A stretch of DNA of 64,000 nt from Chryseolinea sp. H1M3-3 (GTDB taxonomy: Bacteria > Bacteroidota > Bacteroidia > Cytophagales > Cyclobacteriaceae), in NCBI RefSeq assembly GCF_029360725.1, contig NZ_JARKMY010000001.1, forward strand, positions 124,001 through 188,000, given 5' to 3'. Under the pieces are notes generated by a model. It worked only from the letters and a program-made list of their open reading frames with translations, had not been told where the DNA came from and did no database searches. This document shows positions 317 through 2,031 of the stretch, piece after piece. A program made the translations under genes and the position numbers. Numbering within the stretch: the first letter of the stretch is position 1; each line of letters starts with the position of its first letter.

Positions 317-1426
317 ATGGAAAATTTTGTTGTCTCTGCGCGTAAGTATCGGCCTACAGGGTTTGATGAAGTGGTTGGTCAGGAGCATATCACCACCACA
401 CTTAAAAACGCCATCGATAATAATAAGCTTGCCCAGGCGCTTTTGTTTTGTGGCCCACGTGGCGTAGGTAAAACAACCTGTGCCCGCATCGTTGCGCGCC
501 TTATCAATGGTTTTGAAGAGAAGTCTGAAACAAATTCCCTCAATATCTTTGAATTGGACGCAGCCTCTAACAACTCTGTTGAGGATATCCGTAATCTGAT
601 TGAACAAGTGCGTTATCCACCGCAGTTCGGAAAATTTAAGGTGTACATCATCGATGAAGTTCACATGCTTTCCAATGCAGCCTTCAATGCATTTTTGAAA
701 ACGTTGGAGGAGCCGCCGTCGTATGCAATCTTTATCCTTGCAACAACTGAAAAACATAAAGTAATTCCGACGATTCTTTCGCGGTGTCAAATTTTTGATT
801 TCAACAGGATTCAAATCAGTGATATCAGCAAGCACTTAAAAAAAATTGCTGAACACGAAGGAATCCCGGCAGAAGACGAAGCACTTCACCTGATTTCTCA
901 GAAAGCAGATGGCGCATTGCGGGATGCCCTGTCCATTTTCGATTTGATGGTTACATATGCCGCAGGAAAAGGTGTTTCATTTAAATCAACCCTGAGCAAC
1001 CTACATATTCTCGACTATGACTATTATTTCGAGATTATCGATGCGCTGCTGAGTCAGAATCATTCTCAACCTTTGGTATTGTTTGATGAGATTCTTCGGA
1101 AAGGATTCGATGGGCATAATTTTATTGTAGGATTAAGTGAACATCTACGCAATTTGCTTGTATCGCAGGATGCACGTACAACCAATCTGATGGAAGTTCC
1201 CGAAAGCGTCAAGAAAAAATACGCTGTTCAGGCACAATCTTCTCCACCGTCTCTCCTGCTCACCTGGCTTAATCTGGCCAACCAATGCGATATCAATTAC
1301 AAGAGCTGTAAAAATCAACGACTAGCTGTTGAACTGGCCTTGATGAAGATGGCGAACGTCGGGGCTGTGCTACAACTTCAGGATGTGGGATTACCAACGG
1401 AAGCATTAAAAAAAAAAGTGATGTGA
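317..1426 (+). CDS. dnaX: DNA polymerase III clamp loader subunit DnaX, gamma form / N-terminal frame
   Basis: ATPase subunit of the clamp loader that places the beta sliding clamp on DNA. Visible: Walker A CGPRGVGKTT (about residues 45-54), Walker B YIIDEVHM, the LEEPP and TTEKHKVIPTILSRC segments typical of DnaX, then the collar region. The Cys-rich zinc module found between Walker A and the DAASN motif in most DnaX proteins is missing; only a short SETNSLNIFE-type linker is present. The ATG at 317 is preferred over an upstream TTG at 308, because homologues start with the SARKYRP segment. The frame ends 369 residues later, directly after AAA AAA AAA GTG ATG TGA. The tau-specific C-terminal part continues in the -1 frame, so this frame alone would give a gamma-like product. 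Confidence 0.93.
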   Translation: MENFVVSARKYRPTGFDEVVGQEHITTTLKNAIDNNKLAQALLFCGPRGVGKTTCARIVARLINGFEEKSETNSLNIFELDAASNNSVEDIRNLIEQVRYPPQFGKFKVYIIDEVHMLSNAAFNAFLKTLEEPPSYAIFILATTEKHKVIPTILSRCQIFDFNRIQISDISKHLKKIAEHEGIPAEDEALHLISQKADGALRDALSIFDLMVTYAAGKGVSFKSTLSNLHILDYDYYFEIIDALLSQNHSQPLVLFDEILRKGFDGHNFIVGLSEHLRNLLVSQDARTTNLMEVPESVKKKYAVQAQSSPPSLLLTWLNLANQCDINYKSCKNQRLAVELALMKMANVGAVLQLQDVGLPTEALKKKVM

Positions 1427-1459
1427 ATCCTTCTTCGCCTCGCCTTGCCGCTGAAGAAG
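1408..1459 (+). promoter_or_regulatory. Probable dnaX slippage site: A10 run with downstream stem
   Basis: Ten consecutive A's (1408-1417) followed by G span three AAA codons of the gamma frame, so A_AAA_AAA tandem slippage keeps perfect pairing in the -1 frame. The gamma stop TGA is at 1424-1426. Downstream, CTTCTTC (1430-1436) and GAAGAAG (1453-1459) form a perfect 7-bp stem with a 16-base loop, 12 bases after the run. E. coli dnaX uses A AAA AAG plus a stem; Thermus dnaX uses transcriptional slippage on a run of A's. Either mechanism would fit here. Confidence 0.7.
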
Positions 1460-2031
1460 TATCCTCTCGTTCTGTACCAGATGTAAAAGAAAACGGGCCT
1501 TCTGTTGCCGTTGAGTCCATCCCAACGACCCCACCCATCTCCAAAATTAGAAATGGCGATAAGCCCGTTATTAAGTCGTCTTCTAAGACAACCATAAAAC
1601 TTAATGATCTTTTAAACAGAAAATCTACCAATGAGCAAGCCACTCAAGTTTTAGAAACCAGATCTGAATTAAACGAACCCTTTACTACGGAACAACTGAT
1701 GCAGGTATGGAAAGATTTTGCAGTACAACGAAAGAACTTGCAGGCAGAATATCAGATGCTTATTCAGCCCGTTGAAATTCGGGGAAATCATGTTATTGTT
1801 CACTTGTTGAGTACGGTACAGGAAACGATGCTTAACGGTTTTAAAAGTGACTTGATTGGTTACTTGAGAGAAAACTTAAAAAACAATACCATTACAGTTT
1901 CAGGTGAGTTGAGAGAAATAGATGATAAACAATTGCTCTATACCCCCCGTGATAAATTTGAGTACCTGCTTGACAAGAATCCGGTTTTGAAAAAAATGCG
2001 CGACCGGCTAGGACTTGATCCGGATTTTTAA
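1417..2031 (+). CDS. dnaX: DnaX tau-specific C-terminal region in the -1 frame
   Basis: After a -1 slip on the A run the reading continues SDVNPSSPR... for 204 residues, giving a predicted tau of about 571 residues. A GTG at 1423 overlapping the gamma stop could in principle start it separately. The first 85 residues are a Ser/Pro/Thr/Lys-rich linker. The last 110 residues (from FTTEQLMQVWKDF to RDRLGLDPDF) are a compact domain of the kind found at the C-terminus of Bacteroidota DnaX, where tau should contact the polymerase and helicase. It has no start site of its own that looks strong, so I read it as part of dnaX and not as a separate gene. A sequencing error in the homopolymer would give the same picture. 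Confidence 0.85.
   Translation, partial: SDVNPSSPRLAAEEVSSRSVPDVKENGPSVAVESIPTTPPISKIRNGDKPVIKSSSKTTIKLNDLLNRKSTNEQATQVLETRSELNEPFTTEQLMQVWKDFAVQRKNLQAEYQMLIQPVEIRGNHVIVHLLSTVQETMLNGFKSDLIGYLRENLKNNTITVSGELREIDDKQLLYTPRDKFEYLLDKNPVLKKMRDRLGLDPDF

Follow-up and report, generated by a model that had tools for sequence, protein, structure and literature searches.

The dnaX gene of Chryseolinea sp. H1M3-3 changes reading frame at a run of ten A's, and this raises the question of whether the gene is broken, misread by the sequencer, or recoded, and, if recoded, whether the change of frame takes place during transcription or during translation. The gene lies within the window (the whole stretch of 64,000 nucleotides that was analysed), which corresponds to bases 124001-188000 of its contig in a genome of 6.88 Mb.

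Two open reading frames of one dnaX gene

The upstream open reading frame, which has an in-frame TTG at 308 ahead of its ATG, scores 373 bits against TIGR02397 (curated cut-off 250) and is the sole match in the genome above that cut-off. It also aligns to positions 1-364 of 614 in the NF011531 profile with 633 bits, which is below the whole-protein cut-off of 685, as expected for a partial protein, and it contains the Pfam domains DNA_pol3_delta2, DNAX_ATPase_lid and DNA_pol3_gamma3. At the junction the gamma frame reads TTA AAA AAA AAA GTG ATG TGA, while the -1 frame is already open ahead of the A10 run and is not closed until the stop that ends at 2031. The downstream open reading frame as listed begins at GTG 1423, a codon for whose use as a start we found no evidence; it matched no Pfam family, and its match to NF011531 (DNA polymerase III gamma/tau) carries an E value of 5.7e-22. 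Because the two reading frames match opposite ends of NF011531, they are the two ends of one protein.

Table 1. Features of the dnaX locus, in positions of the window
Feature	Position	Strand	Basis or remark
dnaX 5' ORF, gamma subunit	317..1426	+	369 aa from ATG 317; TIGR02397, NF011531 and Pfam
A10 slippage run (candidate)	1408..1417	+	Sequence; gamma frame TTA AAA AAA AAA GTG
Two-frame stop trap	1418..1426	+	TGA 1419-1421 shuts the third frame, TGA 1424-1426 the gamma frame
tau-specific C-terminal part, -1 frame	1408..2031	+	NF011531 positions 426-612 of 614
7-bp stem of the sequence-only reading	1430..1459	+	Present, but missing from all five congeners; judged to lie outside the mechanism

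Translated from the ATG, the predicted products are a gamma of 369 aa (41.4 kDa) and a tau of 571 aa (64.3 kDa). When messages of different A number were translated in silico, those with A9, A10 and A12 ended at 367, 369 and 368 aa, respectively, whereas A8 gave a tau of 570 aa and A11 a tau of 571 aa. The predicted tau junction reads LKKKSDV whether it comes from an A11 message or from a -1 shift, whereas LKKSDV, from A8, would be expected only with slippage or ribosome sliding; the predicted gamma forms end in KKKVM, KKK and KKKK. Both non-tau frames are shut within 2 codons of the run. These results confirm several elements of the sequence-only reading, namely the A10 run with a gamma stop six bases past it, the continuation of the tau-specific part in the -1 frame, and product sizes of about 41 and 64 kDa. 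The perfect 7-bp stem that it placed 12 bases past the run is also there, with arms at 1430-1436 and 1453-1459 around a loop of 16 nt, although its proposed role did not hold up (see below).

The run and the frame break among relatives

The comparison set comprised 310 dnaX loci. Eighty of them came from named genome records, as the best matches among at least 593, and 230 were taken from genomes that share the family, order, class or phylum of the window. Of these 310 loci, 309 were analysed, the gene in the window (L009) included; L317 was dropped because it gave no tblastn match. The 33 genes from outside the class were hand-picked, roughly by family, from among the matches listed, with the large family f29 unsampled. 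Full-length dnaX matches were missing from one of 39 genomes (G013) in one search and from one of 118 in another. In each gene the run was scored over a 360-nt stretch that opens 30 nt ahead of the expected domain III end and closes 330 nt past it.

The site proved to be widely kept. The longest A run in this stretch reaches at least nine in 270 of the 309 genes, with exactly ten in 221 and nine in 27, and runs start at a median of +38 nt from the expected domain III end (all 270 runs). Two of them (L053 and L345) lie more than 260 nt further on and are not the same site; the remaining 268 on-site runs start between -5 and +110 nt, and 220 of the 309 genes have exactly ten A's there, counting the gene in the window. 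At least nine A's are present at the site in 118 of 120 genes from the family, 13 of 16 from the order, 57 of 61 from the class and 69 of the 80 named records, as well as in 11 of 32 genes from the phylum outside the class, where A9 occurs in seven (six of them from family f35) and A10 in four. Within the family, 102 of 120 genes have exactly A10. Furthermore, since 1356 of the 4338 lysine codons (31%) in the gamma domains of run-bearing genes are AAG, and since the A run is found in all three codon phases across genes, the bases themselves appear to be conserved rather than only the lysines that they encode.

Nor is such an arrangement expected by chance. The genome that holds the window has 36 isolated A10 runs in its 6.88 Mb, counting both strands, and by simple arithmetic the chance of an A10 in a 360-nt sense-strand stretch is about 1e-3, or roughly one genome per thousand. 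Among 30 of these 36 sites that were inspected, dnaX alone has two same-strand open frames of more than 200 aa that meet at the run. The dnaX run with its frame break is thus far beyond chance. At other A10 sites of the same genome (L352, L354, L356, L359 and L365) the run sits within a long uninterrupted open frame; slippage of RNA polymerase on A10, if it occurs, should cost these genes part of their product.

A homopolymer sequencing error was the alternative raised by the sequence-only reading, which proposed alignment with close relatives as a check; it is taken here together with decay of dnaX into a pseudogene, the true gene being continuous. Homopolymers are indeed prone to misreading, which could account for some of the runs of 9 or 11 at this site. 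In Flavobacterium, for example, L082 (A9, +1) and L086 (F. denitrificans; A10, -1) have nearly identical junctions, and their difference may be a real one-base change or a sequencing error. Chryseobacterium lathyri (L103) likewise has a split dnaX with A10. For the gene in the window, however, the alignment argues strongly the other way: all five congeners, one of them a single-contig genome, have the identical A10 and the identical -1 offset, their gamma parts are 86-93% identical to that in the window, and the run is retained in over 200 further genes. Moreover, 101 of the 120 family genes are split in the same way, two genes that have no run at all (in genus g15) included. In the 151 run-bearing genes that are split like the one in the window, the tau frame, taken as the frame with the longest opening past the run, continues for a median of 203 codons. 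An error or a pseudogene is therefore rejected on the congeners and the family-wide pattern, and is hardly conceivable as an account of this locus.

Judging from record titles, whose genera we take to belong to the orders named here, the A-run site occurs widely across Cytophagales, Sphingobacteriales, Chitinophagales and Flavobacteriales, although it is not universal in the phylum. Two f23 genes (G358 and G366) have no A run. In Bacteroidales, where 30 loci outside the 309 were collected as the best matches to a runless query, 28 are without a run, a sample biased toward runless genes by that choice of query. L112, L287, L301 and most of L391-L420 (Bacteroidales) have a continuous dnaX with no A run, and L412 and L417 retain runs of 10 and 9. 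Relatives with an unbroken, runless dnaX, which the sequence-only reading had weighed against its own proposal, give a mixed picture: unbroken dnaX is frequent in other families and orders, and many Bacteroidales have neither break nor run, but of such relatives sampled in the class outside Bacteroidales most keep the run.

Two Bacteroidales metagenome-assembled genomes show a different kind of interruption. In L102 (4102-4104) and L105 (2788-2790) there is no A run and the gamma part ends at an in-frame TAG (CCA TAG ATT GC), past which the tau part continues, with no change of frame, over 254 and 201 codons, respectively. Judged from these reading frames, stop readthrough or separate translation of the two parts is possible. 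When 294 Bacteroidales genomes were searched for an internal TAG in dnaX, none was found among the matches listed.

Transcription or translation

Frame behaviour was scored in 269 distinct run-bearing genes, one of the 270 having been removed because its 120-nt context was identical to that of another gene, and L053 and L345 having been kept. Four genes with a stop before any run (L069, L095, L102 and L105) were left out of the frame counts and of the tree, and split calls for the runless, GC-rich L327, L338 and L341, which come from the longest-frame rule, were not counted. Of the 269 genes, 151 are split with tau in the -1 frame, as in the window, five are split with tau in the +1 frame and 113 are continuous, so that of 156 split genes 151 have their tau part one frame back and 5 one frame ahead. 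In the window's own family the corresponding numbers among 120 genes are 101, 2 and 17, and a split frame with A10 is the commonest state (94 of 120). The sequence-only reading had taken the arrangement to be this gene's own; these counts speak against that, as does a 2013 publication of two-ORF dnaX genes with A10 (PMC3711429).

Both frames other than tau are closed just behind the run to a degree that codon usage does not predict. Within 10 codons, both non-tau frames stop in 252 of 269 genes, as compared to 71.5 +/- 7.2 (maximum 90) in 200 codon shuffles of the tau frame, with the reservation that these gene counts are inflated by shared ancestry. The closure holds for genes split in the -1 direction (150 of 151 versus 41.6 expected) as well as for continuous genes (97 of 113 versus 28.3 expected). 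Both frames are shut in only 23% of control windows 60-300 nt further downstream, and at 21 of 90 and 13 of 84 positions in runless genes. The 17 genes that do not shut both frames include 16 continuous ones; of the two genes with displaced runs, L345 fails in both frames and L053 passes. Most telling is the third frame taken alone, which is shut within 10 codons in 150 of the 151 genes split in the -1 direction, as compared to 105.5 expected and at most 118 in the codon shuffles. Because a -1 ribosomal shift visits the gamma and tau frames only, closure of the third frame argues against such a shift; because messages of several A numbers visit all three frames, it favours slippage of RNA polymerase.

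A second line of evidence comes from the history of the encoded state. A gene tree was built from 151 gamma domains with LG+G4 and a quick search. Its 8 runless rows were left unscored; across the 143 that bear a run, the state must have switched between split and continuous at least 19 times, whereas 200 shuffles of the labels gave 47.9 switches on average and never fewer than 39. The encoded state is inherited, yet it has flipped often while the run was kept. For example, L176 (A10, continuous) and L174 (A9, split) are near relatives with similar flanking bases on both sides, and the near relatives L037 (split) and L047 (continuous) both have A10. Such changes between split and continuous, and between +1 and -1, while the run is kept count against a programmed -1 ribosomal shift, and mixed shift direction among orthologues has been treated as a sign of slippage (PMC3711429).

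Structures and sequences that might act on the ribosome were considered on both sides of the run. The 7-bp stem of the window was sought in the five congeners (L010-L014) and is absent from all of them, their longest perfect stems being 6, 4, 4, 4 and 5 bp. Across the 269 genes, perfect stems of at least 7 bp occur within 60 nt past the run in 24, as compared to 10 of 269 in one base shuffle of each, a mild excess. Predicted folding of these 60 nt shows no excess in split genes (mean z -0.32, versus -0.60, -0.16 and -0.07 in controls) and a modest one in continuous genes (mean z -0.65 with 26% below -1.5, versus a mean z of about -0.2 with 12% below -1.5 in three control windows). The stem was accordingly rejected as a functional part, being absent in five of five congeners and accompanied by no excess of folding in split genes, and the role that the sequence-only reading gave it finds no support. 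Upstream of the run, Shine-Dalgarno (SD)-like 4-mers (AGGA, GGAG or GAGG) are present within 25 nt in 134 of 269 genes, as compared to 94 +/- 6 expected by codon shuffle and 76 and 56 by two base shuffles. They are similarly common in split (52%) and continuous (46%) genes, versus 3-11% in windows further upstream, and most of them begin 4-11 nt ahead of the run, a shorter distance than in E. coli. This enrichment could be a ribosomal signal. Within the 30 nt that precede the run, 10 of 269 genes have the full GGAGG, and the dnaX of the window has neither GGAGG nor AGGAG before its run.

Two explanations would place the change of frame in the ribosome. Programmed -1 frameshifting on the A_AAA_AAA that the A10 includes would produce tau from the unaltered A10 message, and it would draw on the strong -1 bias among split genes, the SD-like enrichment, the precedent of E. 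coli dnaX (PMC5009743), the E. coli-like cassette that replaces the run in genus g15, and the folding excess in continuous genes together with the mild excess of 7-bp stems, both of which we count against slippage. We nevertheless consider it unlikely as the main mechanism, given the closure of a frame that a -1 shift would not reach, the changes of encoded state and direction described above, the lack of a conserved stem, and the low SD-assisted shifting reported for F. johnsoniae (PMC12421855). In that organism, prfB shift efficiency is low and Shine-Dalgarno sequences are rarely used in initiation (PMC12421855), and by analogy SD-stimulated frameshifting may be weak in Bacteroidota more generally. 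Non-programmed sliding of ribosomes on consecutive AAA codons, in contrast, would lead into all three frames and would therefore also account for the closure of both non-tau frames, and sliding on poly-A has been documented in vitro with E. coli ribosomes. That same E. coli cell-free system, however, needed a minimum of 11 A's (PMC4363877), more than the ten or nine that most of these genes have, and we regard this explanation as very improbable.

The sequence-only reading left open whether the A10 was a site of frameshifting or of slippage. That it is a recoding site is supported here, and frame closure and flips favour transcription over the ribosome. Indeed, a conserved gamma/tau recoding site in dnaX is almost certainly real and very probably functional, and, to judge from the sequences compared, transcriptional slippage is probably its main mechanism. 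We favour slippage because the run is kept, both non-tau frames are closed, the encoded state flips and the direction is mixed, split genes lack a stem signal, and a precedent exists in Thermus thermophilus, whose A9 dnaX was shown by experiment to undergo transcriptional slippage (PMC1088944, PMC5009743). Thermus dnaX resembles the gene in the window in its late run of at least nine A's, in close stops in both other frames and, if two products are made here as expected, in its two products; it differs in encoding tau directly where the window's gene encodes gamma, and in that slippage there is demonstrated rather than predicted (PMC1088944, PMC5009743).

According to the mechanism that we propose, one dnaX gene would supply two clamp-loader subunits, gamma and tau. 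RNA polymerase would slip on the A10 and produce mRNAs of varying A number, of which faithful A10 messages and those with A9 or A12 would give gamma, ending within two codons of the run, while messages with A11 or A8 would bring the downstream part into frame and give full-length tau. With all three frames populated, selection would keep a nearby stop in both non-tau frames, and with the DNA-encoded product hardly mattering, the encoded state could flip often while the run stays. The occurrence of slippage, the ratio of its products and the production of both proteins are predictions of this model, which is built on the observed run, open reading frames, homology, conservation, stop trap and flips.

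A genus with a ribosomal-type cassette and the meaning of the site

The two family genes without a run (G019 and G101) both belong to genus g15, in which dnaX was found in four of five genomes (L029, L349, L350 and L351). All four have GGAGG, nine bases, seven A's and a G, and then TAG or TAA; read in the gamma frame, an A_AAA_AAG heptamer lies 10 nt past the GGAGG and is followed directly by the stop, with gamma in frame 0 and tau in -1. Set against E. coli dnaX and its SD-to-heptamer spacing, the junction has the same layout, with the roles of gamma and tau reversed. In G101 the GGAGG is kept though the encoded residues differ. Three of the four genes have a GCCT-N7-AGGC hairpin 7 nt past the heptamer and the fourth a longer hairpin with the same start, a feature that on its own carries little weight. 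The third frame is fairly short here too, at 3, 6, 6 and 18 codons when counting begins two codons ahead of the stop, so this feature does not set genus g15 apart. The tree sets the genus among A10 genes, its exact position being poorly supported (11 and 38 for the two nodes closest to it), and since its four genes share ancestry they count as one event. A family search for GGAGG-N10-A7-GTAR matched 12 of 390 genomes, which is no measure of rarity because its spacing is one base over that of the cassette and it missed G019. The cassette appears where the run is gone, and this supports the idea that A10 genes are not reliant on a cassette of the SD type.

The gene in the window joins a described group. 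A GeneTack survey of 2013 reported two-ORF dnaX in 17 genes of 12 genera, nine of them with A10, for which its authors proposed transcriptional realignment or slippage, the dnaX species named in its text being Chlorobi with 7-9 A's (PMC3711429). The defining traits of that type as given there (PMC3711429), namely the same two DnaX parts, a -1 relation between them and poly-A at the junction, are all found in the window, and to them our comparison adds that the run is common to continuous genes, that two frames are closed, that flips are repeated and that one genus has a ribosomal-type cassette. E. coli dnaX, which combines an SD sequence, A_AAA_AAG and a stem-loop in a -1 ribosomal frameshift, shares with the window the gene, the two products (as predicted for the window) and a shift site at a run of lysines, but in the window's type neither an SD at 10 nt nor a stem is conserved, and the frame roles are reversed (PMC5009743, PMC3711429). 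The dnaX of Chlorobium phaeobacteroides, a candidate for ribosomal shifting, likewise would make tau by a shift and has its gamma stop in the zero frame; with seven A's in place of A10 it is closer to genus g15 (PMC5009743, PMC3711429). Finally, the Blochmannia dnaX frame is also broken at an A tract, with slippage proposed to restore tau, but these are eroding genomes of symbionts, and the break falls past the gamma/tau site, within the part that only tau contains (PMC3017870). A 2016 review allows that tau may be the shift product in some bacteria, with reference to the 2013 survey (PMC5009743). In a literature search conducted mostly outside subscription papers, that survey was the only description of two-ORF poly-A dnaX as a type, with none later, and no printed account was found of how broadly the site occurs, of a test for closure of two frames, of repeated flips or of the genus g15 swap.

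Taken more broadly, an ancient A10 slippage switch may operate in dnaX through much of Bacteroidia outside Bacteroidales, indifferent to which subunit is encoded, with genus g15 having swapped it for an E. coli-like ribosomal cassette; we regard this larger proposal as evenly balanced between being right and being wrong. If true, genus g15 would be a natural swap from transcription to translation that leaves the pair of products unchanged, and this in a phylum whose SD-assisted shifting may be weak. The site also offers natural variants for comparing slippage with frameshifting, from A9 to A12, split and continuous, and with one apparent ribosomal switch. For annotation, it should be noted that a split dnaX is the normal state in the family of the window and not a pseudogene. 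The need for gamma has long been debated in E. coli (PMC5009743), and bacteria keep making it, by differing means. Indeed, the retention of ten A's together with the closure of both frames suggests that two forms of DnaX are under selection in the genes sampled here.
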